Assembly (NCBI GenBank): GCA_963281255.1
Contig: OY725495.1
Location: forward strand, 1,798,001 to 1,862,000
Source of the DNA: Aphrocallistes beatrix
Taxonomy: Eukaryota; Porifera; Hexactinellida; Sceptrulophora; Aphrocallistidae
Length of the DNA: 64,000 nt
Direction of reading: 5' to 3'
Of the stretch, positions 7,176-43,694 are shown piece after piece. The notes under the pieces were generated by a model. The model was not told where the DNA came from and searched no databases. It saw only the letters and a list, made by a program, of their open reading frames with translations. A program made the position numbers and the translations under genes. Every line of letters starts with the position of its first letter. Position 1 is the first letter of the stretch.

Positions 7176-7551
7176 TTACAACTTTAAATTAAATTTTCCT
7201 AATGCATGTAGAAACCCAGTGTTGAATTAAATTGATCAAAGTTTATTGTCTGTTGACAATTTGCACTATTGCCAATTCACAAATAACAATTGATAACTGC
7301 ACTTCTATAATTAAGAATCCCTCTAAATCAATTGTAATGATTTCAATTTCTGAAATAATTAAAACATATATTAGTATACCAACAACAACCCTACTGTAAT
7401 AACATAATAACATGAGAGTCATAATACTTGTAGAAGTGATATTATTAACTGTAAGAAATATAAATGACAATATTAAGTCGCATTTATAGATTTCTTGCGT
7501 GTTAAATAAATTAACTATTCAGATGTCATCATAAAATTGCAATTTCAAATA
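7176..7551. other. AT-rich leader before hAT pseudogene
   Basis: No gene on either strand; the minus-strand frame at 7243-7470 lacks coding character. Presumably the 5' non-coding part of the hAT element. Confidence 0.35.
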
Positions 7552-9016
7552 ATGAGCAGCAGTATTAAGAGGGTAAAGCTGAGTGGTGCTGCCTACAAAA
7601 GGCAACGAGAAAAGCGTAAAGAAGAAAATCAGCGCTCTGCACGTACAATGCACAATTTCTTGCTGCCTGTTGAGTCTGTAACGGTTCCAGTTCCTGATAT
7701 ATCTTTTGTAGAAAGCCCTACGATTGATTCCAATCTTGATGAGACTATAGCTAGCTCTTCAGTCAGATACACAGTTGGGATAGAATCCAATTCAGAGGAA
7801 TCAGATTCAATGACGGGACCTGAATCCGAAATACATGATGTTGATATAGTAGATCCTGATATCTTTCATGATGCTGGAGTTTGGAATATACCATTATCTG
7901 CCCCTATTCGGATCGAACTCGTATCCCGTGGGCCAGTAGATCTTCAAAACAAAGAGGGGCCATTTATATCACTAGAAAAACCTGGTTCAAGAGGAGAGAA
8001 TAGGACTCTTAGCAAGGAATGGTTTTATCGTATCTTAGAAAATGGTGAGAAAGTACTGAGATCTTGGATGTTGTATTCTCCAATTAGTGGATGTCTATAT
8101 TGTTTTTGCTGTCGCTTATTTTTGAGAAGTCCGATAGATCAAACACAAAGTGCTTTTGCACTAAACGGGTTCCGAATGTGGTGGAAACTTAATCCTAAAG
8201 TTAATGATCATGAAAAAAGTCGTGAACACCTGTTAGCATTTGTGAGTTGGAAAGAACTGGCAATGCGGTTGGACAAGGCTCAAACATTGGACAGGGATCA
8301 ACAGGGACGAATAGAATCACAAAAAAAGAGGTGGGCCAATATTCTTCATCGTATTATTGATGCAATTCTATTTTTGACTAAACAGAATCTCGCGGACACA
8401 GGGAGTTCCTTGATGGAGAAGGCAATCCTGGAATCCTTCATTGATTTTATTCAATTCAAAGGGATAACAGCTGAGGAAATAACGAAGGTTATTCTGCAAA
8501 AATTGAGCGAAGACGGATTAAACATAGAAGATTGTCGAGGACAAAACGCGGCTACTATGGCTGGAATCCACAATGGTGTGCAACAGCGGATCCGTAATGT
8601 GAATCCAAAGGCTGAGTTTGTCGCATGCACAAATCACAGTCTCAATCTAGCAGGAGTTCATGCAGCTGAAGAGACCATCAACTCTATCACATTCTTTGGA
8701 ACTGTAGAAATAGTTTATTCTTTCTTTTCTTCCTCCACTCATCGATGGGACATATTGCAAGCATTTGCGCCAAAAAGAGTGAAGCGAATAGTGCAAACTC
8801 GTTGGAGTGCCAGAAATAACGCAGTGAGTGTGCTATGTAACTATTTCCCTGAAGTGTTAGAAGTCTTGGAGAAACTTACGGGAGCAGAGGAGAATTTCGA
8901 CACAAGGTCAGGTGCAGGTATCCTCAGGTATCAGCTTAAATACATTCCCATTTTTCTGTCACCTGGGATTATGGGGGAAGATTCTCCCTGAAGTTGATGA
9001 CGTCCAGAAATATCTA

Positions 9017-24167: not shown

Positions 24168-24171
24168 AATA

Positions 24172-24515
24172 CACGGGGGTAATACGATTGGAAGATAAAA
24201 TGGGAAAAATTCCCAGCGTAGATGAGCATTTATATTAGCTATTTTGGACAATATGGAATAAGAATTCGTGATTCTTTAACCTCTGTGACGTCAGAAAAAA
24301 AATTTTTCCGCAAAAATAGCCCGCCTGTCCGGAAAAAAATATTTTTTAAAAAAAATTCCTAAAAAATATTTTAGCACTACTTGTCAAATATTCCCATTCA
24401 CAGATTTATATTACTCGATTTTGGGTTCAAATATCTTCTTTGTTTGATTATATATTGTATATTGGCAAAAAATTTTAACTAAAATGCCTATTTATTGGAT
24501 ATTGCCGAATTTATT
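24172..24515 (+). repeat. Left terminal inverted repeat of Chapaev-like element
   Basis: Starts CACGGGGGTAATACG at the AATA duplication. It stays alignable with the right arm, including the AATATTTTTT/CCTAAAAAATATTTT tract and TTATTGGATA, to about 24515. Confidence 0.85.
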
Positions 24516-24886
24516 TCCGGTAATATTTACATATGAAAAATATGAGCTTTTGGTTCGTTCGCTCCACAACAAATTAATTTAACTATTTTTAGTATACTTT
24601 ATTCAATTAGTTTATTTCATAATATGTCCTTCAAATGAGTAATGTAATGCTGAATTCTTTACTATGGTAATTATACTAGCTGAAGAATTAATTGCTAGAA
24701 AGTTTTTATTAATCTTGTATATTTACAGTAGTTAATATATCATAATTCAATCTCCAAATCAGACAAACAACACAGAGAAGCAGACAAATAGCATTCTATT
24801 TAATGATATAGTAGATAACCAAACCTAAAATTTACTTATTTCAGTTAAATTTCCAAGTCATTTCAATAACTTACCTATCTATACTA

Positions 24887-27176
24887 TTATGTACTTATAT
24901 AGTTAAGAATTTTGTTAATCAATATCCGAGAAGAAGATTCTTCATCTGTGTCCCAATTATGAAGTTCTATCCTTTCTATATCACTTTCCTCATCATGACA
25001 GTCGCTGCAAGTATCAGCGAGTATATTCCCCTGTTCTTTAGAAAGCCTTTCTGCGTTATCCCACCGTAAATTATAATTATAGGTCACCATACATTCAATC
25101 AATCTCTGTGGGTATAGCTCGTGCTCTAACTTGGTCTTAAATCTAAGATCCCAAAGATTTTCTGGAATGCAGCATCTCTCCGCTCTGCTCTGAACTTATT
25201 GCTGCCCCTGCTGTTAGTTGAGGTTCATAATGGAAGAAGTATTCCATATAATGGTGGAAAGTATATGCGATTTTAATGACCAAGGTAAACCGGTTGCATC
25301 CCATGATTCTCTGAATAGGCAAATACTCTCTTCCCAACCAGGCTTTCTTAAAAGACCCAAACACCTGTCTTTTACCATCTTTATTGATTTTAGGGCGTTT
25401 AACAAGGAGGTGTGATGGCTAGAGAATGGTATAATATCCAAATTAGCCAAAAGTCGAGAGCAAGAGTTACCTTCTAGAGCGCCATCCCAGTACTCAGATC
25501 GATATACTTTGCATCTTTGCAAAGCTTGACAATGTTGTTTATACAGTAAACGATCATATCGATTAGTCGCATTTTGAGATGGCCTAGCTACACCATGCAA
25601 CCGATTGACGAGACCAAGAAGTATATGGAGAGGAGCAAGAGCAAGTATTTCCATAGGTGAATCTGACCACTTGATAGTTGGTTCATGAGATACGCTATTA
25701 GTTTTTGAATGAAAATCCTTAATTAATTCATTATACCTTCTTGCACGAAGAGGTGTTCCGGTACATTTTGTATTCTTCCGCCATATACAAAATGGGCAAG
25801 GATGCTTGCTAGATGCTTGCTGAATTCCAACGAGCATAGCAGCTACTTTAAAATCGCATGCAATTTGGATCGGAATATCCAAGTTAAAGATGTTTCGAAT
25901 AGATGTTAAATTTAGTAATGAGCGCAAGTTTTCTGAATTTTCGGATGCGTGACCCATCGCGATTACAAAGTTGGAAAGAACGCTATTAGGATTTGCTATA
26001 TACAGACTATTCGGAAGCATTGAAACTATATTGACAGACAGCTTGAGGAATTGTTTACCGCCATCCAGTTGTACTTTAAGTCTCGAAATTCTGTTCAATT
26101 GTTTATATGTGATTATATTCAATAATCTTTCAACATCGGTACAAATTCCCATTGGAACCAGTTCAAAGTTTTGTGTTTCTGAATGGATCATTTTGATGGA
26201 TACTGAAGTAAATATTTCTCCAAATATTGACCATTTTTCATCCCATGCTCCTTTTATTCCCCCCGTGGGAAAATGGATTCCTTCTTTGCGAAGAATTCTA
26301 CCCAGCTCAAAATACGACTTTTCCCCCAAACCAAGGTGACCTCTTCTGCATATCTCGGACTGCCTCTCTGCTTAAAACGTGATTACTAATATTATGTTTT
26401 GCACTCTTATACGGAATTGTAGCCACAGCTAATTGATTATTCGAATCGAATGGATGATATAATGATTGGGCATTAAATAGTGTAATAAAGCTATTGTCGC
26501 TAACTGAACCTTCGAGACTACTTACCAGGAAGTTAGCAGTGAGATATTCAGTGTATCCACGAGACTCTACCCTTTCTGCGAAGTGTTTTCCAGCCTGCCG
26601 AGAAGATTGTGGGCGTTTCATAACTCGTTTGCAAAAGTCGATATCATGGACATTAGTAGACATTCCACACTTGCTGCACATTAATCTGACAGGAGATTGT
26701 TCAAAAGGCCTACCAGGATTAGGGCCTTGTGTCTTGAGTTTTGAGAGATGATTATTCATGGAGGACGAGCATATTTTGCATATATGGCATCGATCTGTAG
26801 GGACACAAAGAATCGCCTTCCGAGTAATGTTACATGGAATTTCGACATTTAGGTTGGATTCAATATTAGATCTATCGGAATGCCATTTGTGTATGTTCAG
26901 TTTGCCACTTTCTAATTCTGATAACCGAGATCTACAACTACAACAAAATACCTTTGGCTTAAAGAGATCAATTATTTCAGCGCGAAGATCTATGTTGTAA
27001 AACTTATAAACTCTGTCAATCACCAGATTAGTAGGAGGCTGTTGCAAATTTTTCTTAGCTAAATCTTTTGGCGATAGGCGGATATAACAAAAACGGCAGA
27101 CTTTGTACAGTGAATCCACATGGTAATTATCCCAAATATTCAAGAGATTTTCTGGTATTAATAATGAAGAAGACAT
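24887..27176 (-). pseudogene. Transposase with RAG1-N-terminal-like zinc region, frameshifted
   Basis: Start chosen at 27176 (MSSSLLIPENLL); 35 upstream in-frame codons look non-coding. Residues 27-30 CRFC, 78-81 in VFCCSCRSRL, W98 and 130-136 CHICKIC follow the order C-x2-C, DxVxKxxxID, F-C-x2-C, W, C-x2-C of the RAG1 N-terminal region. The frame ends at 26307. It resumes one base over (about 26330) in a G5A4 run, giving a second segment to 25214. That segment has QLDGGK (first Asp), CDFKVAAMLVG (second Asp, 70 residues on), HPCPFC, APLHILLGL and ALEGNSCSRLL (presumed Glu, 127 residues further). Further frame changes near 25255 and 25145 separate FHHYMEYFF...SEQSGEMLHS and LIECMVTYNYNLRW, an expected transposase tail. 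Predicted intact length is about 760 residues. Cut-and-paste transposition is inferred from family features. Frame changes fall in homopolymers, so base-calling error should be excluded. Confidence 0.75.
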
Positions 27177-27549
27177 GTTACTGAAAAATGAATAAAGAAT
27201 TAAATTTTTGTGACACTTATATAGAAATGGTATAGATATGGTTCCTACATAATAACAATAGATTAGCAAGACAGCCAAATAGCATGCAATGAAGAAGTCT
27301 TAAAATCATACTCATATTTGTATTTTTATGTTATCAGGATATAATTTTATAGTTAGTGTTAGAATACAGATGTGGTATCATCCAACCGTTGGCTAAGCAC
27401 GAGTATACTATAACATAGCGTTACCCAACGGTTAATTACTTAAACTCATTATTTCAATAAAATCAGTTTTAGAACATAGGCATAGAGAATTGTCAAAGTG
27501 AATAAAATTGCAATGACATGCAGAAATTATACTCTGACTGACAGAGAAT

Positions 27550-27879
27550 ACATTTGGCATTATCCAATAAATGTGTATTTTTAGTTTAAATTAATTCAAA
27601 ATATAATCAAACAAAGAAGATATTTGCACCAAAAATAGTGTAATATAAATCTGTGAATGGTAATATTTGACAAGGACAGTTAAAATATTTTTTAGGAATT
27701 TTTTTTAAAAAAATATTTTTTCCGGACAGGCGGACTATTTTTGTGGAAAAAATTTTTTATGACGTCACAGAGGTTAAAGAATTACGAATTCTTATTCCAT
27801 ATTGTCCAAAATAGCCAACATAAATGCTCATCTACGTTGGGAATTTTTCCCATTTTATCTTCCAAATATTACACCTGTG
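27550..27879 (-). repeat. Right terminal inverted repeat of Chapaev-like element
   Basis: Reverse complement starts CACAGGTGTAATATTTGG and mirrors 24172-24515. AATA follows at 27880-27883. Confidence 0.85.
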
Positions 27880-27883
27880 AATA

Positions 27884-39063: not shown

Positions 39064-39762
39064 TTACCTTTTTAATTTATAATAAGCCCTTTGCTCTTCG
39101 ATCAATTTCAGTTGCTCTGAGAAGACTGCCATTTGTTGATATAGTACTTCCTGTTGCAGAGGAACTAAATCGGATGCAGTCAACCTTGGCCTTGGCTCGT
39201 CAAAATCGGGAGAAGCTTCACGTTTCCGTTTTCGCCTTCTTTGACCCTTCCCCTTCTCTGAAGCATATGAAGTCTTTACTTCCACCACAGGAGATTCAAG
39301 GATCTCTTCACTTTCATGCTCAAGGGGTACTTGGAAGAGATCCGCTGTGCCTGAAATCCCCATGAAAGATGGACTGCTCTCAAACATTTGAGATATTCTC
39401 TCGGTGTTTGTTATGGTCTTATCTGCTGAGAGAATGAACGACTCAACATCTTCTACGACACCAGCAGAGTTAGAGCCACCGCCAGTTCTACTAGCCTCCC
39501 TATGACTAGCATCAACTTTTGATTTAGCGGCTAGTTTCAGGTTGTTCCACTTCTTTTTGACCTCTTCAACCCCTCGATTACTTCCATGTACCGAATTTAC
39601 TTTCCCTGCGATGTCGATCCACAGTGCCTTTTTTTTCTTATTGATTTCGGCGGTATTTCCTGACCCCCTAATTGAATCGCCAGCAATTTCAATGCATTCG
39701 ATCAGTGTGCATTCCTCTTCCTTCGTCCAATTTATTTTGCGTGCTTTTTCCATTTCTGTCAT
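39064..39762 (-). CDS. Harbinger Myb/SANT-like DNA-binding protein
   Basis: Start chosen at 39762 (MTEMEKARKINWTKEEE), which sits directly before the domain; the same frame runs 36 codons further upstream without coding character. 232 residues. Residues about 9-85 form a Myb/SANT-like (MSANTD/NAIF1-type) domain: INWTKEEECTLIECIEIAGD, ALWIDIAGKVN, VEEVKKKWNNLKLAAKSKV. A linker contains ESPVVEVK, then a lysine/arginine-rich patch (RRRKRKRE, likely nuclear localisation) and a C-terminal glutamine/leucine coiled-coil-like tail (LQQEVLYQQMAVFSEQLK). In Harbinger systems this partner binds the nuclease, carries it to the nucleus and contacts transposon ends. It lies about 350 bp downstream of the nuclease gene on the same strand. 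Confidence 0.88.
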   Translation of the reverse strand: MTEMEKARKINWTKEEECTLIECIEIAGDSIRGSGNTAEINKKKKALWIDIAGKVNSVHGSNRGVEEVKKKWNNLKLAAKSKVDASHREASRTGGGSNSAGVVEDVESFILSADKTITNTERISQMFESSPSFMGISGTADLFQVPLEHESEEILESPVVEVKTSYASEKGKGQRRRKRKREASPDFDEPRPRLTASDLVPLQQEVLYQQMAVFSEQLKLIEEQRAYYKLKR

Positions 39763-40117
39763 GGATATTATGATAATCATTCGCAATTTATATGAACCGG
39801 ATGAAAGACATGCAATTAGCGAGCTGTTTATGATATATTTTGGGAATCTTTGATATACTTGTATATACACAACATTTAGCCGTGTTATTTTGTTCGTTTG
39901 ATTTTGATTACTTGTGTCAAAATGAATGTATTTGATGTCTTTAGAATATCATACTTCAAAAATTGTAATGTTTTTACTTGTTACTAATATTTAATCATGT
40001 GCTTGAATCAGTCTTTGATTTTTAACTGTCAGCCGAAGAAAGCTTAATTCCCTGTGAGAATTTGAATTTCCTAATATTAATTATTAATTAAATTTGTACG
40101 ATATTATATTTAATATT

Positions 40118-41167
40118 TTAACTGAAATTATGGATAACAAATTGGTCCCTATAATGTTTAGCAGCCAATTGTCCAACTGCAGAAGATTCCTCTAAATTTA
40201 ACTCTTCATCCATAGCGATGTCATGAGGAGGTAGGTCTTCGGACATTGGTTGCTTCCAAGCAATTGCCATATTATGCACGACAGCACATGCGTTAATGAT
40301 GATGCAAACCTTGTCTGGAGCCATCCTGATTTCACCATGGAGACAATGAAATCGCCGCTTCCATCTTCCAAAAGTTTGTTCTATCAAAACACGCGTTTTC
40401 TTGTGTGAATAATTATAATTGTTTTGAGCTTCAGTAGTCGGTTGTCGATAAGGTGTTAAAAGAAGTTGTTTAAGCATATACCCACTGTCGCCCAATATAT
40501 GCTCTCCGACCAAGAAATTATTTTCAACATAAATTCCAACCTGTGATAGTTTCCAAATACGAGAATCATGTACGGATCCGGGAAATCTTGCCAAAACATC
40601 ACCGAACTGACCATCTGGCAGACACAAAGCTTGGACATTGATAGAATGGTAGAAATGTCGGTTAACATAATCAGCTTCGTTTTCGCTAGGCTTTTGAATC
40701 CTTATATGCGTCCCATCAACCAACCCAAGTACTCCTGGAAGGTGTGCAATGTCATACAATTGAGATTTAATATTAGGTTTCTCTGTAGATGAGGGCATCC
40801 TGACAAATTTTGAGTAATTCTCTTGCAAACCAAGCGCAACAGCGCTAATATAACGACTGGCCGAAGATTGACTCACTTGAACTCCATCTCCACAGATCAT
40901 TTGGAATGTACCCGAAGCAAAGAATTGCAAAGCTACACAAACTTGCACGTGTGGAGGTGCTGCATGGGACCGATCAGTTGAGTTTAAATGGTTTTTAAGC
41001 AAATCAGTAATTTGCAGTATCGCTGATCTTGAGAAACGGTACCGCTGGACAAGTTCAAAATCGTCAAAGCAATCCAATGGATCCCTACGATCTCTGAAAA
41101 CTCGCTCTCGACCTAGAGAGTTCTCCTCGTCTTCTTCAGCGATAAATATTGGAATTAATCCTGCCAT
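40118..41167 (-). CDS. Harbinger transposase (HARBI1-like DDE nuclease)
   Basis: The second Met, at 41167 (MAGLIPIFIAEEDE), is preferred; the frame opens at 41188. About 349 residues, the usual size for the family. Order: helical N-terminus with YRFSRSAILQI, LQFFASGTFQ and GVQVSQSSASRYI (helix-turn-helix-like); GLVDGTHIRI (first catalytic Asp); FPGSVHDSRIW (second Asp); LGDSGYMLKQLLLTPY; TRVLIEQTFGRWKRRF (catalytic Glu); NACAVVHNMAI. All catalytic positions of DDE_Tnp_4 proteins are present and there is no internal stop. It cuts and joins element ends together with the Myb-like partner. Likely functional by inspection. Confidence 0.92.
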   Translation of the reverse strand: MAGLIPIFIAEEDEENSLGRERVFRDRRDPLDCFDDFELVQRYRFSRSAILQITDLLKNHLNSTDRSHAAPPHVQVCVALQFFASGTFQMICGDGVQVSQSSASRYISAVALGLQENYSKFVRMPSSTEKPNIKSQLYDIAHLPGVLGLVDGTHIRIQKPSENEADYVNRHFYHSINVQALCLPDGQFGDVLARFPGSVHDSRIWKLSQVGIYVENNFLVGEHILGDSGYMLKQLLLTPYRQPTTEAQNNYNYSHKKTRVLIEQTFGRWKRRFHCLHGEIRMAPDKVCIIINACAVVHNMAIAWKQPMSEDLPPHDIAMDEELNLEESSAVGQLAAKHYRDQFVIHNFS

Positions 41168-41499
41168 TTTCAAAGATATAATAATCAAAATTGCATATTT
41201 CTGGAACTTATTATTTCATTTATACTTTCTGTCTTATGAGAATAATAGTTGCCTTAACAACGATTAGAATATTTACCATGTATTTAGATTACATTCCTAT
41301 TTCATAGATTAAATCACATATGTAATACTATATTTACATTCCTTACCAACAGTTAAATAGTTCACATGAATCTTTATAAATGCTTATATTATAGCGTATT
41401 TTAAGTAATGAAATTTCAATACTATTTGGAAGCCATTGTAATTAGTAAGAAACATTGATTGAACATTATTGATGCATTAGATAGTAAATTGATAATAAA

Positions 41500-41729: not shown

Positions 41730-43694
41730 CAGATTCACATAGATATGTTGTCACAAAAGGGACAACCAAATTCACTGCTCTTTCTGCCAATATAACAAAG
41801 ACATTTAACTGGTGACACAAAAAGGTTGTTAATTCCATTTTGACCTTTCGATTCTCCTTCAGCTCTATTAATTCATCCTTGGCCATATCTTCATCCTCAA
41901 TTGAATCCAAATTGAAAAGAAATAGATAGCGAATCCAGCCAGACGCCACATTAAGATCTCCATGAGAGAAATAACCATAAAAGGAAGTCATTAGTCCGTC
42001 CAAGTGAGTGCATATTTGATCAACAAGAGGCATATCTTCTTGCTCATCCTCATCCTCAATAATGCAGTCTAAAGTATGAAAGTTAGCAAAATTATGCTTT
42101 TCTGCGCTCCTTTTCCACAAACTGGGAGCTTATGTATGAATGCAGCCATTTCTCACTTGCTGTTATTATGTTGCCTCCTGATCCTTGAATAGAGGTATTT
42201 AATTCATTCAGATGTGTGAACAAGTCCGCCAAGTAGGGTAAACTCAAAATAAAGTGCCGACTCTTGAAGCTGCCTACCATTTCGTCGCCCTTATCCTGAG
42301 GAAATTGAGCAATCTCCTCATGAAGGTCCATTACACGGGTGAGCACTCGACCACGAGAAAGCCATCTGACTTCTGTGTGAAAGAGCAATACACTATGCTC
42401 GGATCCAATTTCTTTGCAGAAAACCTGAAAGAGACTGATTCAGCGCATGCCCTCGGATAAAGTTGACTGAACGCACAACAATCGACATAACATTCTTAAA
42501 CTCAGGAGGAAGGTATTTGGAGACAAGCGAGTGTTTGTGTAGAATATAATGTGTCACAATAATACTGTGAATGTCTTTCCTCATCAGGGCTACGAATCCT
42601 GATCGGTTGCCTAACATTGCTGGAGCTCCATTTGTGCAAATTGACCCACACCTCTGCAAGTTCAAAGCATGTTGTGTAAAGAATGCCTTCACCAACTTTA
42701 ATACATATATTGCCTTCGTAGTTTTTATGAGGGGTTCACAGAACAGAAATTCCTCATATACTCCTCATTCTTTCACATATCGGACGAATACCAGCAACTG
42801 ACTGCAATTAGCGACTTCTGTCGATTCATCGAGCTGGATACTGAATCTGACAGGAGTTGCTACAAGGTCGGTGACTAACTGCTGCAGTATATTTTGGCTC
42901 ATATAATCAATCCGAGACCGAATAATGTCTTTAGATAAAGGAACTTGCTGCAGTTTCTTCTCTACCTCTTTACCCAATACTATGTTTACCATCTCCATTG
43001 CACAAGGCTTCAGCAGTGTCTCAGCTATAACATGGGGCTTTTTTTCTTTAGCACATAAATAAGCAAACTTATAAGATGCCAACAACAGTGGTTTTTCGCA
43101 CGGCACAAATCCACACGCCGATAATGTGCCACCAGACTCAAACCGAGCTCTTTTAACCATCAAGGATTCAATATCATAACCGGATTCTAAACCACCATGC
43201 AGATTCTTAAAATGTTCATCTAGCCTAGATGGTTTGAGGTTTGAATTGGAAAATATTACATTACACAGTACACACTGTAGTCGCTGTGTTCCGTCTTTTT
43301 CAGTTGTACAGGTAGAACATATCGCACGTAGCTATCATTCCACTTTCGCTTTTTGGACATTCCAAATATTTATTTTTTTAATTGAAAAATCGGAGATATA
43401 AAAGACTATTCTAGATAATAATATACGTGTATATATACTATAGGCGTGTAGGGATTTTAATGCGAATTAGCATACTAATAAAGGTAGCGTCATTACGCCT
43501 ATTCGATAAAATGCATTAATTGATACATTATATGATTTTGAAAAAGCACTTCTAAGAATACAATAAAATGTGCAAAAGCTAAACAATGCACTTCATTGAG
43601 TAGGCAAAATGGAACAAATTTGTTATTACTTAGTAAATATTAATCAAGTGGCTATACTTTCCCGCACCCCCGGTTGAGAACCACTGATTTAGAG

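Follow-up and report, generated by a model that had tools for sequence, protein, structure and literature searches.

Can one transposable element carry both the zinc-binding N-terminal region of RAG1 and a catalytic core of the Chapaev type, and what would it say about the origin of the RAG1 N-terminus? The question is raised by a transposase pseudogene in a stretch of 64,000 nucleotides, here called the window, from the genome assembly of the sponge Aphrocallistes beatrix (contig OY725495.1, positions 1,798,001 to 1,862,000). Our answer, to which we give a probability of about 0.9, is that the window holds a defunct member of a multicopy family of Chapaev-type (CMC/CMCT) cut-and-paste transposons, whose transposase combines a RAG1-like zinc region with such a core. 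The family link of this element to RAG1, the enzyme by which vertebrate antibody genes are assembled, is already published; in this study, the catalytic glutamate is corrected and a likeness to ZAD, a domain of insect C2H2 transcription factors, is added as a new lead. The original prediction for this locus therefore holds in outline and errs in its catalytic glutamate.

Kapitonov and Koonin (2015, citing Kapitonov and Jurka 2007 for Chapaev) gave the shared region, which forms part of the RAG1 N-terminus, the name Chapa domain and report it from Chapaev, Chapaev3, TransibSU (truncated) and RAG1 (PMC4411706). The bearing of such elements on the origin of the RAG1 N-terminus, which the original prediction had drawn, is likewise already in print there. 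The same authors add that a RING follows the Chapa domain in two Chapaev subgroups, and conclude that an ancient fusion joined the domain to the core. As hallmarks, Chapaev is described with CAC/GTG ends and 3-4-bp target site duplications (TSDs) and Chapaev3 with a 3-bp TWA TSD (PMC4079192), and Transib and RAG elements with 5-bp TSDs (PMC8355894).

The element and its copies

The window element (Table 1) has the termini CACGGG.../...CCTGTG with AATA on either flank, in agreement with the CAC ends and 4-bp TSD attributed to it beforehand, and its inverted repeats (24188-24515 and 27547-27865) are 88.5% identical across 330 columns. Across the 100.5 Mb of its own genome (28 contigs), a 300-bp piece of the left repeat has at least 42 matches and the core open reading frame (ORF; 371 aa) has 119, counting fragments and other clades, and over the aligned pieces the window element shares 94.6-95.2% identity with each of four sister copies (L021-L024). 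Both ends could be placed in 12 (nine of clade A, two of clade B and one of clade C, as defined below) of 21 loci surveyed, i.e., the window and L021-L040. Seven of these 12 elements are flanked by an exact 4-bp TSD, and none by an exact repeat of 2, 3, 5 or 6 bp. CAC was a search condition for locating the ends; nonetheless, inverted repeats and TSDs stop at the same point. Together with the DDE, C-x2-C and H-x4-H motifs of the core, these ends and TSDs are those of Chapaev. Assignment to Chapaev3 was rejected for want of any exact 3-bp repeat, and assignment to Transib or RAG transposons for want of any 5-bp TSD, although the predicted core layout is of the RAG1/Transib type. Within clade A, a subfamily (L029, L031 and L033) has inverted repeats that are 97-98% identical and, at 841-869 bp, greatly exceed the repeats of the window copy in length.

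The genome carries four related transposase clades, A to D, and the window copy belongs to clade A, with termini CACGGGTGTAATATT. Clade B comprises L035 and L036 (termini CACAGGTAACTAAAAC), clade C comprises L039, L042 and L043 (termini CACTATTCGTAAAACA, read in L039), and clade D is a partial locus, L065, without ends in view. The clades are mutually about 18-30% identical, and the zinc region and core keep their order in all four. Adjoining a clade B element, L037 holds at 1042-1752 a minus-strand piece of a further related transposase (SLEGNDCRKLL ... SETACESSHSAF). Relatives also occur elsewhere: the glass sponge Oopsacas minuta contributes four proteins among the 53 matches to a profile led by clade B, in keeping with a probable hexactinellid host, and the protist parasite Perkinsus chesapeaki two among the nine clade A matches. 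The latter two, P0009 and P0010, are incomplete proteins of clade A with 45% and 37% identity to L008, respectively, and may reflect horizontal transfer or contamination. Among the literature matches listed, none reports Chapaev in glass sponges; PMC4298943 contains both ‘Chapaev’ and ‘sponge’.

Table 1. Parts of the transposon copy in the window, with the basis of each reading
Feature	Position	Strand	Basis
Whole element, Chapaev-type DNA transposon copy, 3,708 bp	24172..27879	-	CAC...GTG ends, inverted arms, TSD
Left 4-bp TSD copy, AATA	24168..24171	.	read directly
Right 4-bp TSD copy, AATA	27880..27883	.	read directly
Left terminal inverted repeat	24172..24515	+	outer bases read directly
Right terminal inverted repeat	27547..27879	-	repeat pairing and reading of ends
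N-terminal frame, transposase pseudogene (zinc region, GRP motif, fourth zinc motif)	26307..27176	-	ORF; tblastn with L005 residues 1-289, 90.7%
First zinc motif H-x7-C-R-x-C, HVDSLYKVCRFC	27087..27122	-	motif reading
Second zinc motif P-x3-C-x2-C, PKVFCCSC	26934..26957	-	motif reading
Third zinc motif, CHICKIC	26769..26789	-	motif reading
GRP motif PGRPFEQSP, common to clades A and B	26691..26717	-	clade comparison
Fourth zinc motif C-x2-C-x6-H-x4-C	26631..26678	-	motif reading
Core frame, transposase pseudogene, 385 aa stop to stop	25214..26371	-	ORF
First catalytic Asp, VQLDGGK	26054..26074	-	alignment and motif reading
Second catalytic Asp, ACDFKV	25844..25861	-	alignment and motif reading
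Core zinc C-x2-C, HPCPFC	25787..25804	-	motif reading
ALEGNS, earlier-proposed catalytic Glu, judged non-catalytic	25463..25480	-	Thr (YTG) at same place in L039, L042, L065
AISSEQ, conserved probable catalytic Glu, out of core frame in window copy	25185..25202	-	motif and frame comparison
C-terminal transposase remains	24932..25256	-	tblastn with L005

The zinc region

The zinc region of the transposase is RAG1-N-terminal-like: its three zinc motifs follow one another as they do in RAG1 and are spaced as they are there. All residues named for it in the original prediction are present on the minus strand (C27-x2-C30, D54-x-V-x-K-x3-I-D63, F77-C-x2-C81, W98 and CHICKIC at 130-136); two of them vary, as the sister copies L003 and L005 have Ala in place of V56, and W98 is replaced by Phe in L012 and by Cys in L040. 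Of 18 transposase N-termini, 16 conform to the pattern H-x7-C-R-x-C-x25-60-P-x3-C-x2-C-x15-70-C-x2-C, the exceptions being P0010 from Perkinsus and L043, and its matching RAG1 form fits 74/74 RAG1s. For RAG1, 78 proteins were retrieved, of which P0011-P0085 (75) were used, 74 of them longer than 1,000 residues; the N-terminal alignment took in the 48 rows that satisfied its cutting rule. Among the 75 rows examined, all 70 with CR[ILV]CG have a His at -8 from the first Cys. According to Martin and others, the N-terminal zinc motifs of RAG1 and RAGL are three in number and are termed C1, C2 and C3 (PMC7204232). By our own reading, these are the three zinc motifs of the Chapaev transposase.

Profile comparison bears out the proposed likeness for clade A, which scored 33.9 against RAG1 (P 9.3e-5, reached by 0/250 column shuffles) and, in a second run, 34.1 (P 9.5e-5, 0/400). 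When whole-length profiles were compared with whole-length RAG1, the best stretch was N-terminal (P 0.01 with clade A and 0.0045 with the pooled profile), as it was for clade B, where it included the third motif (P 0.12). The Chapa domain was recognized through its likeness to RAG1. A search for RAG1_imp_bd (PF12560) in the genome gave no match, but is uninformative as the controls were likewise silent. No significant RING match follows the zinc motifs in the copies scanned, the best being zf-RING_4 with E 0.87 in 1/16 members. In a phmmer search of the PDB, the best match to the window N-terminus had E 0.036 and was taken as chance. Between the first and second motifs, a clade A copy carries an in-frame 24-bp tandem array while the remaining frame stays open; the array has 50.6 copies in L028 (676-1890) and 34 eight-residue VVER[APH]TQL units in L009 (1-870).

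The catalytic core

The core motifs reported earlier, QLDGGK, CDFKVAAMLVG, HPCPFC and ALEGNSC, are all present in the window copy. In the structure model, fold matches suggest that the core has the RAG1/Transib layout, at 11-15% identity to RAG1/RAGL. At the sequence level, the whole-protein profile A2 gave a single match in the PDB (E 0.35), which was not RAG1. The RAG1 rows share H-x4-H-x15-S-E-G in 74/74 cases, in which the Glu is the E962 of PDB titles, and the transposases have S-E-Q 17-24 residues after H-x4-H, in the form SHILSDH...SSEQ in clade A, HVVCRH...VSEQ in clade B and HFLFYH...FSEQ in clade C. A rule for this spacing found the pair in 18 of 63 proteins scanned, many of them fragments, and missed P0089 (spacing 17).

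Likeness to ZAD

A profile of four ZADs (Pita, M1BP, CG2712 and Grauzone) matched clades A, B and C/D with P 1.5e-4, 3.9e-3 and 9.9e-5, respectively. These scores were reached by 0/250 shuffles each and, with Cys held, by 0, 3 and 0 of 180. For each clade, one of the four ZADs outranked 11 decoys, a different ZAD every time, and VIA on the N-terminal model listed ZADs as its only entries. As ZAD was picked because clade A and B sequences had brought it up when searched against the whole library, the P-values for these two clades are not fully independent; a clade C sequence had no zf-AD hit in the library scan and provides a cleaner replicate.

Other searches gave less. Foldseek with the N-terminal model returned eight matches at E<=10 (best E 3.0), with no ZAD among them. 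Pfam ZAD (PF07776) scored L008 at 13.1 bits, below the gathering score of 28, and reached E<=10 in 5/16 members (best E 0.029). No zf-AD was found in the genome at E<=0.01, though controls were silent too, and ZAD compared directly with RAG1 gave no significant match. We found no paper naming ZAD together with RAG1 as whole words, and none on ZAD with Chapaev among the matches listed, in a search that was not exhaustive.

Alternative explanations

The zinc part and the core of the window copy lie in different frames (Table 1), and the SSEQ-bearing stretch (25161-25256) lies in another frame than the core, as would be seen if the zinc region were a separate host or transposon gene that adjoins a Chapaev core by accident. 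However, among L002-L020 (n=19, part of them fragments), five loci (L002, L003, L005, L008 and L012) have a single open frame that runs from the CRxC zinc motif through the second-Asp region to that of SSEQ. The N-terminal part is therefore not a separate gene, and the order of parts is constant over the four divergent clades; we give accidental fusion almost no credence. The joining proposed for this locus is thus found at other loci, where the transposase of open-frame sister copies is one protein of about 750 residues, whereas the window copy itself is split. Convergence, by which generic C-x2-C zinc motifs arose separately in both families, seems improbable to us: with Cys columns fixed, the clade A score was reached by 0/180 shuffles, the RING region of RAG1 as a decoy gave P 0.19, the His at -8 and P-x3-C-x2-C are common to transposases and RAG1, and the same homology is already in print (PMC4411706). 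Several results nevertheless weigh in its favor or against our interpretation as a whole. On their own, clades B and C/D show no clear RAG1 match (47/250 and 4/250 shuffles reach the score), and pooling weakened the match relative to clade A (all, 2/250; pooled 16 rows, 3/400). In an earlier untrimmed run, the score was reached by 1/200 shuffles for A, 6/200 for A+B and 1/200 for all; one of the 200 shuffles for each of the three queries scored oddly in that run, at 133-134, and later runs were free of this. No Pfam RAG1 model matched any copy scanned, core-RAG1 similarity is absent from the whole-length profile comparison, the quality of the structure model is moderate (mean pLDDT 65.0, pTM 0.54), and five of the 12 elements with both ends placed lack an exact TSD. 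Lastly, the Chapaev assignment was made by comparison with published descriptions of the group.

For the catalytic glutamate, the original prediction had chosen ALEGNSC, a choice in line with the RAG1 Glu, which likewise precedes G-N (SEGNE), with conservation of this site within clades A and B, and with the low confidence of the model near SSEQ (pLDDT <50 for residues 651-664, SSEQ included). We nonetheless regard it as highly improbable, and judge this Glu to be non-catalytic because Thr (YTG) occupies the same place in clade C (L039, L042) and clade D (L065), whereas clade C keeps H-x4-H and SEQ (L042 and L043; L051 with the second His altered); the clade D locus stops before that region. 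In addition, the aligned range ends at RAG1 1007 and model residue 710, so that E962 of RAG1, 45 residues short of this end, would fall near L008 residue 665, where the model is weak; the SSEQ Glu is residue 659 and the EGN Glu 564. The catalytic residue is thus probably the Glu of SSEQ, at 25185-25196 in the window. With this Glu, the series D, D, C-x2-C (HPCPFC), H-x4-H (SHILSDH) and E agrees with the pattern published for the CMCT group, in which the DDE residues are accompanied by C(2)C and H(3-4)H, both lying between the second D and E (PMC12730594). As for ZAD, the likeness has a somewhat better than even chance of being a common treble-clef arrangement without shared descent, even though each clade matches the four-ZAD profile beyond shuffles and in each a ZAD beats the decoys. 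That the first zinc module of the Chapaev transposase (the first two C-x2-C), and via it that of RAG1, forms one domain family with the ZAD of insect C2H2 transcription factors is a tentative proposal, about which we are more doubtful than confident.

Proposed mechanism and significance

The ends, TSDs and motifs are read from the DNA and the core layout from the model; beyond these, analogy with RAG1, Transib and ZAD biology suggests how the element may have moved. Two transposase subunits would pair both element ends, cutting would follow a RAG1/Transib-like route, probably through a hairpin, and the ends would be inserted at target sites with a 4-bp stagger. The zinc region at the N-terminus may act as a non-catalytic module for dimerization or protein contact and may aid end recognition.

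From this study, open-frame members of a RAG1-related Chapaev group have been obtained, probably from a sponge, the likely catalytic Glu has been reassigned, and a Chapaev-type core with the RAG1/Transib layout gains model-based support. Should the ZAD lead prove true, the RAG1 N-terminal region would gain a testable fold and role; this region is missing from a near full-length construct that starts at residue 265 (PMC11844651).

Other mobile elements have left traces in the window. On the minus strand, 39064-41215 holds a PIF/Harbinger-type pair, a Myb/SANT-like gene (PF13873, 1.7e-15) and a DDE_Tnp_4 nuclease (PF13359, 1.4e-40). By eye, 7510-8991 and 42765-43331 resemble fragments of hAT transposases; the former had no Pfam hit in the library scan.

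Comparison with known systems

The element resembles ZAD proteins in a C-R-x-C ... C-x2-C module that is about equally long and whose second pair is preceded by P-x3 in three of the four ZADs. However, no His at -8 is present in ZADs where seen (in Pita and M1BP, either no His stands so far ahead or the sequence is too short to tell), the likeness covers the first two motifs, and scores fall under the Pfam cut-off. N-RAG-TP of Aplysia is a mobile element with a RAG1-N-terminal-like protein, as the original prediction noted and two secondary sources report (PMC8355894, PMC2996935), but it is described as having the N-terminal part only. Transib (HzTransib) differs in its 5-bp TSDs and is described without a RAG1-like N-terminal region (PMC7204232). 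RAG1/RAGL share with the element the order of three N-terminal zinc motifs, the predicted core layout, H-x4-H and the SE Glu, and differ in 5-bp TSDs, low core identity, and the RING and RAG2 partner of RAG1. Closest of all is Chapaev as described in PMC4411706, PMC4079192 and PMC12730594, with CAC/GTG ends, 3-4-bp TSDs, a DDE core that contains C2C and H(3-4)H, and a RAG1-like zinc region. Unlike the Chapaev subgroups with a RING, the elements here show none in the copies scanned, and in clades A and B the three zinc motifs are followed by a GRP motif and then by a fourth zinc motif; the hosts named in PMC4411706 are lancelet and sea anemone, whereas the host here is probably a sponge.
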